Source: an uncultured Pirellulaceae bacterium (lineage in GTDB: Bacteria; Planctomycetota; Planctomycetia; Pirellulales; Pirellulaceae). Taken from it: a stretch of 64,000 nucleotides of DNA. Numbering within the stretch: position 1 is the first letter of the stretch; the number at the start of each line of letters is the position of its first letter. The translations under genes were made by a program, and so were the position numbers. Where the stretch lies: the NCBI GenBank assembly GCA_938084685.1, contig CALKGE010000001.1, forward strand, positions 372,001 through 436,000, in the 5' to 3' direction. Positions 6,947 through 9,936 of this stretch are shown piece after piece. Below the pieces are notes generated by a model. It was not told the DNA's origin and ran no database searches. It was given only the letters and a program-made list of their open reading frames with translations.

Positions 6947-8227
6947 TCAGGCCCGGGGGAAAGGGAAGGGGAGGACTTCAGTGATCGAATTTTTATTGAG
7001 AGCGATCATGGCCAGCCTGTCAAAACCTAAAGCGACTCCACAACAGTCGGGCAAACCATGCTTCATCGCTTTTGCCAGATAGCTATCAACGGGTAACACA
7101 GGCCGATTATCCGACTGTCGCAGCGCATTGGTCTTCAGGTTTCGCTCGTATAGCTCGTTCGCGTCAAGTAATTCGTGATAGCCATTGGCCAGCTCAATTC
7201 CATGAACATATAACTCAAATCGCTCGGCAACCAGCGGGTTGTCCGGATGAATGCGAGCCAATGCGGATTGACTTGCCGGGTATTCATAGAGAATGCAGGG
7301 TTTCTGGAGTCCCAACTGGGGCTGAATAAACTCGGTCAACAACAGATCCAGCCAGTCTGTTCTGGCAAGACTTTGCCATGTCGGTGACATCCGCATGTCC
7401 AGCGCTGCGATGACATGCATGAGATCCTGGTCCGAGATTTCCAGTGGATCAAAATCAAGAAGCTTTTGGAAAGCCTGCTGATAGGTGATCTGTTCAAAGC
7501 TCTCAAATGCTAACAGCTCAGTGATAAGCTCGCCCAAAAACTGCATTGCCTGCTGAGTGGTATCTCCGACCCGGTACCATTCGACCATGGTGAATTCGAG
7601 ATTATGGAGGGGCCCCTGTTCCTCATCGCGATATGCCCGGCCAACCTGAAAAATGGACTTCATTCCGGACGCCAACAGTCGCTTCATCCCAAACTCGGGT
7701 GACGTCTGCAGCCAGTACGGTTTCCCTCCAATTTCTACCTGGATGGGATGCAGGTATCGGTCAACGACGGTATCAGCAGACAGGGTTGGTGTTTCCACTT
7801 CGTCAAACCCGGCGTCGTAGAAGAACTGACGGAGCCGCCTTAAGAGATTGCTTCTTTCCCGGAGTGTTGCGACCGTGGCGGTCGATGCAAAGTCTTCCAG
7901 ACAGTTGGTATTCGCCTGCGAGACGCTGGTTTGCATCGCGGAATAGAACCGGAGCTCCATTTCGGCAATCTGAATTTGGTCACCATGATGTAGGTGAAAC
8001 GGCTGTTGCACGAGCGCCCCGTTCACGTACGTGTCGTCAGAGTTACTGAGCTCTTCGATCACCACGTGGCCGTTGCTTACGAGCAAACGAGCATGCTGCC
8101 GACCGATAGCCTCCAAGCTCACCTGTAGCTGGCCATGCTCATCGTGACCAAGGATATTTTGGCCCGCGGACAATCTGAACAGTCGTCCCTGATCGAGCCC
8201 GTTGGTGATGATTAGGTAGGCCATCAT
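6947..8227 (-). CDS. epmA: FHA domain fused to EF-P beta-lysine ligase (EpmA-like)
   Basis: 426-residue protein. Residues about 100-426 form a class-II lysyl-tRNA-synthetase-like core without an anticodon-binding domain, as in EpmA/GenX/PoxA, which attaches (R)-beta-lysine to a conserved lysine of EF-P. Motifs include 'VETPTLSADTVVD', 'LQTSPEFGMKRLL', 'FQVGRAYRDEE', 'HNLEFTMVEWYRVG' and the terminal 'GVALGFDRLAMI'. Residues about 1-97 form an FHA-like domain (LIITNG...GHDEHG...GRQHA...DDTYVNG). The usual GR and SxxH of FHA pockets read GH and GRQH here, so phosphothreonine binding is uncertain. It lies 18 bases downstream of efp on the same strand, evidently one operon. The fusion is unusual: E. 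coli EpmA is only the 325-residue catalytic core. Confidence 0.88.
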   Translation of the reverse strand: MMAYLIITNGLDQGRLFRLSAGQNILGHDEHGQLQVSLEAIGRQHARLLVSNGHVVIEELSNSDDTYVNGALVQQPFHLHHGDQIQIAEMELRFYSAMQTSVSQANTNCLEDFASTATVATLRERSNLLRRLRQFFYDAGFDEVETPTLSADTVVDRYLHPIQVEIGGKPYWLQTSPEFGMKRLLASGMKSIFQVGRAYRDEEQGPLHNLEFTMVEWYRVGDTTQQAMQFLGELITELLAFESFEQITYQQAFQKLLDFDPLEISDQDLMHVIAALDMRMSPTWQSLARTDWLDLLLTEFIQPQLGLQKPCILYEYPASQSALARIHPDNPLVAERFELYVHGIELANGYHELLDANELYERNLKTNALRQSDNRPVLPVDSYLAKAMKHGLPDCCGVALGFDRLAMIALNKNSITEVLPFPFPRA

Positions 8228-8245: not shown

Positions 8246-8818
8246 TTACTTCAGGCTGACGCGTTCTACGTAATCTCCGGTACGAGTATCTACCTTGATT
8301 ACGTTGCCCATTTCAATAAAGGCTGGACAAATGATCTCGGCACCCGTTTCCACTTTGACAGGTTTTGTCACGTTGGTCGCGGTGTCCCCCTTGGCTCCTG
8401 GCTCACAGAATTCCACGGCGAGTTCGACATGGTTGGGAGGTGTAATGGTAATCGGATTACCGTTCCACAGCACGGCGTGGCACTTCATGCCTTCTTTGAG
8501 ATATTTCCAGTAATCGCCAACCTGATCCGCCGACAGTTCGTACTGATCGAAGTCTGTATTGTTCATGAAGTAGAACGTATCGGTCTGACGGTAGAGAAAC
8601 TGGCAATCGATTTCTTCGACATCAGCAGCTTCCAGGGAGTCACCACCCTTATAAGTACGATCCAGGACGGTTCCGCGAATCAAGTTTCGTAACTTGCATT
8701 TGTAAAGAGCGTTTCCTTTACCTGGCTTCACGAAATTCATCTCAATCATCAGATAAGGTTCGTTATCGATTTCGACTCGGAGTCCCTTGCGGAAATCGTT
8801 AGTTTTATAGCTTGCCAC
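8246..8818 (-). CDS. efp: Translation elongation factor P
   Basis: 190-residue elongation factor P, which relieves ribosome stalling at polyproline stretches. The N-terminal KOW-like domain begins 'MASYKTNDFRKGL', and the modification loop 'VKPGKG' places Lys34 exactly where E. coli EF-P is beta-lysylated. The OB-fold domains follow, ending 'IKVDTRTGDYVERVSLK'. It starts at a GTG preceded by AAGGA 11 bases upstream. It is followed by epmA and faces epmB, so the target, the ligase and the aminomutase sit in one locus. This strongly suggests that the factor is beta-lysylated. Confidence 0.96.
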   Translation of the reverse strand: MASYKTNDFRKGLRVEIDNEPYLMIEMNFVKPGKGNALYKCKLRNLIRGTVLDRTYKGGDSLEAADVEEIDCQFLYRQTDTFYFMNNTDFDQYELSADQVGDYWKYLKEGMKCHAVLWNGNPITITPPNHVELAVEFCEPGAKGDTATNVTKPVKVETGAEIICPAFIEMGNVIKVDTRTGDYVERVSLK

Positions 8819-8913: not shown

Positions 8914-9936
8914 ATGACATCCCACTTATCACAGACCAAACGGACGTCTGGCGAGTCTTCGAGTGAGGTGGTGTCATGGCAGGCGGAGATGAAGCGGGCG
9001 ATACGTTCCTCCAGTGATTTGTGTGAGTATCTGCATCTCAATCCAGAGGAGGTTGGCTCGGCCGAAAATGATTTCCCGGTATTTGTGCCTCTTTCCTTTG
9101 CTGCTCGCATGCAGCCTGGTGACCCGCAAGATCCTCTGCTGCTGCAAGTGCTTGCCCGGATGGAGGAGTCCGTCGAAGTGGCAGGTTATCGGGCAGATCC
9201 CAACGGGGAAGCTCATGCGGGTTTATCAGCAGGCATCCTTCAAAAGTACGCTTCTCGTGCTCTGTTGATATCGACAGGCGTGTGTGCAGTTCATTGCCGT
9301 TACTGTTTTCGCCGGCACTTTCCCTATGCAGATGCTCCGTCTGGTATGGAGCAGTGGAAGCACTCTCTGGAGGCGATTGCCAGCGACAGTCAGATTGAAG
9401 AAGTCATTCTCAGCGGTGGGGACCCACTTGTTCTATCTGACCAGATGCTCGGGCAGCTGCTTAAGAAGTTGGCAGACATTCCGCACCTGAAACACGTACG
9501 TATTCACACTCGTACACCCATCATCATCGCTTCACGGATCACGGATTCTTTGCTTGCCCATCTGAATTCCACTCGGCTGAACATCTGGTTTGTGATTCAT
9601 GCTAATCATGCTCGTGAACTTGATGGGGAAGTATTAGCGGGCCTGTCACAGCTGCAGCAAATTGGTATTCCAGTATTGAATCAGGCGGTGTTACTACGTG
9701 GGATCAATGACAGTGAAGAGGCGCTTTATCAGTTGTGCAAGCGATTGATGGAGGCTCAGATTATTCCGTACTATTTACACCAGCTTGATAAAGTGGCGGG
9801 CGCCGCGCATTTTCACGTTCCCATTGAACGTGGCCGCGAGCTGATTGCCGCGATCAGAAAGCGGCTACCAGGTTACGCTGTTCCTCGGTATGTAAAGGAA
9901 ACCGAGGGTGAACCATCCAAGACGGTTTTAGCATAA
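8914..9936 (+). CDS. epmB: EF-P beta-lysylation protein EpmB (lysine 2,3-aminomutase-like radical SAM)
   Basis: 340-residue radical SAM/PLP enzyme that converts (S)-alpha-lysine to (R)-beta-lysine for EF-P modification. The 4Fe-4S cysteines are C124-x3-C128-x2-C131 in 'CAVHCRYCFRRHFPY', and 'EVILSGGDPLVLSD' is the following aminomutase signature. 'WQAEMKRAI...LCEYLHL' matches the EpmB N-terminus. The ATG at 8914 gives the family length (E. coli 342), whereas the frame open from 8863 adds 17 residues with no family similarity. It is divergent from efp-epmA across a short shared promoter region. Catabolic lysine 2,3-aminomutases are longer (around 400 residues), so EpmB is the better call given the context. 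No EpmC hydroxylase was seen. Confidence 0.9.
   Translation: MTSHLSQTKRTSGESSSEVVSWQAEMKRAIRSSSDLCEYLHLNPEEVGSAENDFPVFVPLSFAARMQPGDPQDPLLLQVLARMEESVEVAGYRADPNGEAHAGLSAGILQKYASRALLISTGVCAVHCRYCFRRHFPYADAPSGMEQWKHSLEAIASDSQIEEVILSGGDPLVLSDQMLGQLLKKLADIPHLKHVRIHTRTPIIIASRITDSLLAHLNSTRLNIWFVIHANHARELDGEVLAGLSQLQQIGIPVLNQAVLLRGINDSEEALYQLCKRLMEAQIIPYYLHQLDKVAGAAHFHVPIERGRELIAAIRKRLPGYAVPRYVKETEGEPSKTVLA

Follow-up and report, generated by a model that had tools for sequence, protein, structure and literature searches.

What is an FHA domain doing at the front of EpmA, and why should the binding pocket of that domain look so odd? The modification of EF-P is commonly regarded as a constitutive process, and the gene that raises these questions lies next to the gene for EF-P itself, in a window of 64,000 nucleotides (the whole stretch of DNA that was analysed) from an uncultured Pirellulaceae bacterium. 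A single uninterrupted reading frame on the minus strand (8227..6947) encodes a 426-aa protein in which an FHA domain, a short linker and an EpmA catalytic domain follow one another (Table 1). A preliminary description of the locus had given the gene these limits and had read about 95 extra N-terminal residues as FHA. Both points stand, and the FHA-EpmA architecture is certain.

Table 1. Coordinates in the window of the fusion gene, its altered pocket codons and the neighbouring genes
Feature	Position	Strand	Basis
FHA domain, residues 1-97	7937..8227	-	PF00498; AlphaFold2 pLDDT 90.9; Z 13.7
Altered pocket codons H28 (8146-8144), G42 (8104-8102), D64 (8038-8036), D65 (8035-8033)	8033..8146	-	alignment with eight genus members
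Linker, residues 98-112	7892..7936	-	pLDDT <50 at residues 100-111; 0-50% interspecies identity
EpmA catalytic domain, residues 113-426, and stop codon	6947..7891	-	TIGR00462, PRK09350, Foldseek, active-site residues
efp (EF-P)	8246..8818	-	TIGR00038, E=2.2e-70; directly upstream of the fusion, 18 bp gap
epmB (EF-P lysine 2,3-aminomutase)	8914..9936	+	TIGR03821, E=6.1e-123, 409.9 bits vs 369.3; divergent

Architecture of the fusion

The N-terminal segment is recognized as FHA by profile and by predicted fold alike. PF00498 (FHA) matches residues 26-87 (E=1.7e-9, 38.4 bits against a cut-off of 20.7), and the related FHA-like family Yop-YscD_cpl also matches, over residues 7-96. Modelled alone with AlphaFold2, the domain has ten strands, and the solved structures that it resembles best are the FHA domains of GarA, OdhI, FhaA, DgcB and EmbR (Z 13.4-13.7, 87-91 residues, 2.1-2.4 A); for GarA and FhaA, at the top of that range, the rmsd is 2.3 A over 88 residues. 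The segment is conserved in the homologues of the genus. For a PDB sequence search, and for that only, the unknown residues (X) in the FHA domain of one genus member, NAT223, were filled with Lys. In the AlphaFold2 model of the whole fusion (mean pLDDT 87.9) the linker is disordered. The true start of the protein is probably Met2 (8224), the position at which all relatives start. An internal start that would yield an EpmA without FHA was considered and is rejected; neither Met90 nor Met98 of the window species is conserved across the genus.

Where might the FHA domain have come from? Its best-scoring paralogue in the genome is the FHA domain at the N-terminus of a 557-aa protein (locus L003, 136-1809), which is 30% identical to that of the fusion; relatives have FHA matches in frames of 550-620 aa. 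An FHA domain of the L003 type is a possible source of the fused one.

The ligase and its neighbours

The remainder of the protein is a complete EpmA, as had been proposed. TIGR00462 (EpmA, NCBIfam) matches residues 122-421 (E=3.6e-104, 348.5 bits against a cut-off of 286.9), PRK09350 matches the same part (E=3.1e-96, 322.4 bits against 264), and Pfam assigns residues 114-422 to tRNA-synt_2, while the LysRS profile scores only 170.6 bits on the fusion against its cut-off of 468. The AlphaFold2 model finds E. coli GenX (3A5Y, 3A5Z) and Salmonella EpmA in Foldseek with target TM values of 0.93-0.96, and 133 of 311 positions aligned with E. coli EpmA (3A5Z) are identical (43%). Eleven residues that we take to form the active site (E. 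coli numbering S76, E78, R100, H108, E116, Y118, E244, N247, E251, A298 and R303) are kept without exception; of these, Ala298 presumably separates EpmA from LysRS, which has Gly there. The fusion is best read as an EF-P (R)-beta-lysine ligase, and its ligase activity we infer from these sequence features.

Because the EF-P gene adjoins the fusion and epmB lies divergently beyond it, the efp/epmA/epmB set for EF-P beta-lysylation is present here. The mechanical epmB frame opens at TTG 8863, and the likely start is ATG 8914. The narrow gap between efp and the fusion suggests that the two are co-transcribed. The Lys of the KPGKG loop of EF-P is present in nine of nine genus members, and the order epmB-efp-epmA is the same in all nine genus loci and is common to many relatives too. 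To judge from this gene order, the FHA segment entered that shared arrangement at the junction of efp and epmA. In six of eight genus members the beginning of the EpmB N-terminal tail, M[TS]S[HD]LSQTK (8914-8940 in the window), is conserved and the remainder of the tail varies. This tail overlaps the stretch that separates the start of efp from that of the divergent epmB, so its conservation may reflect a constraint at the DNA level.

Distribution of the fusion

How widespread is this architecture? The fusion was found at full length in nine of nine genomes of one uncultured marine Pirellulaceae genus, among them the Pirellulaceae MAGs NAT223, UBA2972, SP166, SP4, S1_Bin_33, SI074_bin7 and UWMA-0045 and 'Rhodopirellula sp.' NAT69, and each of the nine proteins matches both Pfam families on its own. 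Outside the genus the picture is different. Among 392 genomes drawn across the phylum, EpmA was found in 73 (E<=1e-40), and the FHA part is absent from all 72 of those other than the fusion's own, their matches beginning at query residue 90 or later. A survey of 241 genomes of the family found EpmA in 230; among the matches listed, EpmA proteins from outside the genus begin at query residue 70 or later. Searching 396 genomes of the order with a profile of the fusion gave, among the matches listed, coverage of the FHA part only by the five genus members drawn, the others beginning at position 62 or later. A profile of the fusion's FHA domain had no match in about 120 loci from outside the genus, which reach into Proteobacteria and Patescibacteria; these loci are partly redundant, some being duplicates of one genome, and may include a few LysRS genes.

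Two further observations belong with these surveys. One family member (locus L034, genome G010) has an in-frame TAG inside its EpmA match, which may point to a pseudogene or to an error in the assembly, or may mean that the match was extended upstream. The viral contigs scanned yielded only LysRS-like proteins; two IMG/VR contigs (L144, 4491-5873, and L145, 4491-5882) carry genes for near-identical proteins (about 460 aa) that are matched best by lysine--tRNA ligase profiles, under the cut-offs and with the catalytic part alone scanned.

Might the fusion be an artefact, in which separate FHA and EpmA genes were joined in error during annotation or assembly? Nothing in favour of this was found beyond the fact that most members of the genus are metagenome-assembled genomes. 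The same single frame, with the same boundary, recurs in nine separate assemblies whose proteins differ at up to half of their residues, and we reject an assembly or start-codon artefact as extremely improbable. It had been asked whether the fusion is clade-wide, and at the level of the genus it is. The preliminary description also knew of no described FHA-EpmA fusion, and none was found in the open-access full-text literature searched; architecture databases may list the fusion without comment. A large survey counted EpmA as a single-domain protein only (PMC6544042), and would on that account pass over the FHA-bearing form. The fusion is confirmed as a domain architecture that is specific to this clade, in an enzyme that is itself known; as far as we have checked, it has not been described before.

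The phosphothreonine pocket

In the window species the pocket motifs GR, SxxH and NGT are replaced by GH, GRQH and DDT. The first two replacements (G27-H28 and G42-R-Q-H45) had been pointed out before, and N64D and G65D are to be added to them. The alignment gives the changes R28H, S42G, D59E, S62N, N64D and G65D, which are seen in the window species alone. The other eight species show no variation at Gly27, Arg28, His45, Asn64, Gly65, Thr66 or Asn69; among them Ser42 is replaced only in SP4, by Asn, so that seven of the eight carry every motif. This constancy holds in a domain whose identity between distant pairs of the eight canonical species is 40-73%, and pocket positions are enriched among the invariant columns (7/8 versus 31/95, P=0.0014). 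It had been suggested that the pocket might bind something other than phosphothreonine; because the other eight pockets are canonical (one Ser to Asn), this does not apply to the fusion generally and can be entertained for the window species only. On this alignment the odd pocket is a local loss in the window species, not the nature of the fusion, and by analogy with known FHA proteins the domain in the genus is probably a phosphothreonine-docking domain.

One alternative makes the FHA domain a module for docking or assembly that works independently of phosphorylation, occupies the place of the anticodon-binding domain of LysRS and helps to hold EF-P or a partner by its loop surface, much as GarA and OdhI hold 2-oxoglutarate dehydrogenase. 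EpmA has been described as LysRS reduced to its catalytic core, with no anticodon-binding domain (PMC2821294), the best fold matches of the fused domain are GarA and OdhI, including their complexes with their enzyme, and in the window species the predicted fold persists although its phosphate ligands are lost. These points would fit such a module. The conservation above chance of the phosphate-binding residues in eight of the nine species, with its single Ser to Asn change, argues against it, and we consider it unlikely.

Phosphothreonine docking remains our preferred reading for the genus. What then becomes of the domain in the window species, where the residues that would hold the phosphate are gone? 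Because of that loss, we expect one of two outcomes from the sequence: either the FHA domain there docks in a phospho-independent manner, or it is decaying. Since the domain is kept without its phosphate-binding residues, phosphothreonine binding would seem to be dispensable, at least in this species. The species with canonical pockets, set beside the pocket-less window species, provide a ready-made natural mutant.

Is there a Thr in the neighbouring proteins that the pocket might recognize? Among the Thr residues special to the genus, none in EF-P or EpmB tracks the state of the pocket cleanly. EF-P Thr134 was considered as a covarying ligand and fits in part. Six species whose pockets are intact or nearly so have Thr at residue ~134, and the window species has Ala; the two deepest species, however, have Lys there and yet carry canonical pockets, and for that reason we regard this candidate as too weak to use.

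Selection and rates of change

Two close species pairs gave dN/dS values of 0.124 and 0.130 for the FHA domain, 0.069 and 0.138 for the enzyme, and 0.26 and 0.94 for the linker. The FHA domain is under purifying selection, like the enzyme. Over the tree of the genus it has accumulated 4.06 substitutions per site versus 2.05 for the enzyme, a rate about twice as fast.

Do the rates indicate that in the window species the FHA domain has become a passenger, its ligand lost and its sequence drifting, while EpmA activity is maintained? Such decay would concern the window species only, and would be compatible with phosphothreonine docking elsewhere in the genus. Five of the six departures of the window species from genus-invariant FHA columns lie in binding loops (28, 59, 62, 64 and 65), and in the nine-member alignment the window species is alone in departing at a pocket column on which all the remaining species agree. 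The terminal branch leading to the window species is also long for the FHA domain (0.87 versus 0.23 for the enzyme, a ratio of 3.8), as decay would have it. That ratio is matched, however, by SP166 (3.95) and SP4 (3.25), in both of which the pocket is intact or largely so, and with a strict set of pocket positions the enrichment of window-species changes does not reach significance (Fisher P=0.11). Moreover, the frame has neither stop nor frameshift, the Pfam match is a good one as given above, and the fold is modelled with confidence. Decay is a tentative explanation, to which we allow clearly less than an even chance.

A possible link to kinase signalling

Planctomycetes had been said to have Ser/Thr kinases in abundance, and the genus agrees with this: Pkinase (Hanks-type) matches number 14 in the window genome and 21, 30 and 46 in three relatives. 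That EF-P can be a kinase substrate is known from Streptococcus suis, where a Ser/Thr kinase phosphorylates it at Ser148 and Thr176 and its function is affected (PMC12595652). A search of the open-access full-text literature found no study of EF-P phosphorylation in planctomycetes. There is precedent too for FHA domains acting on enzymes: in DgcB a fused FHA domain switches the enzyme through phosphothreonine (PMC6733907), and the FHA proteins GarA and OdhI bind and inhibit 2-oxoglutarate dehydrogenase (PMC10415282).

What sequence of events might account for the fusion? The scenario that we prefer, and to which we would give a probability of about 0.5, is that the EF-P ligase acquired its N-terminal FHA domain in a single event, in the ancestor of this uncultured genus of Pirellulaceae, that the domain serves for phosphothreonine docking in the genus, and that the pocket was lost in the window species. 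A Ser/Thr kinase would make phosphothreonine on a partner, and this partner might be EF-P or some other member of the pathway, or else a kinase; the FHA domain would dock there and so place EpmA on that partner. Docking might then speed up or slow down EF-P lysylation locally, in the manner in which FHA domains control enzyme activity in DgcB and in GarA and OdhI. In the window species the domain would act by phospho-independent contact or would be losing its function, with the ligase intact. Phosphothreonine binding, a partner of this kind and a regulatory effect in one direction or the other are plausible by analogy.

A further step would be that a kinase marks EF-P or a partner, that the FHA domain recruits EpmA to the mark, and that beta-lysylation is thereby regulated, so that kinase signalling in the genus adjusts how polyproline proteins are translated. 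This fuller scheme we regard as speculative and rather doubtful. If it were true, the fusion could put EF-P activation under protein-kinase control. An FHA-bearing ligase that selection maintains in one genus offers a well-delimited natural setting for asking whether the extent of EF-P modification is set by kinases.

Comparison with known systems

How does the fusion stand beside the systems it resembles? With EpmA (PoxA, GenX, YjeA; E. coli 3A5Y and 3A5Z) it shares the whole catalytic core, the active site and the linkage to efp and epmB. EpmA is usually described as a single-domain protein, whereas the fusion adds about 97 FHA residues and a linker. The 557-aa L003 protein of the same genome resembles the fusion in its FHA domain, the best-scoring paralogue, which also starts with MAYL and has a near-canonical pocket; the rest of L003 consists of other domains, GAF and a phosphatase (PP2C/SpoIIE-like), which, the FHA domain excepted, were named by reading the sequence alone.

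Among characterized proteins, DgcB of Bdellovibrio (FHA-GGDEF) is like the fusion in carrying an N-terminal FHA domain on an enzyme, and the two FHA folds match at Z 13.6. The DgcB domain senses phosphothreonine and controls catalysis (PMC6733907). The enzymes differ, and the ligand in DgcB is its phosphorylated N-terminal tail, whereas no tail precedes the FHA domain of the fusion. GarA and OdhI have the closest FHA folds, and their FHA domain binds and regulates a metabolic enzyme; they differ from the fusion in being free-standing proteins, each with an N-terminal phosphorylation site of its own.
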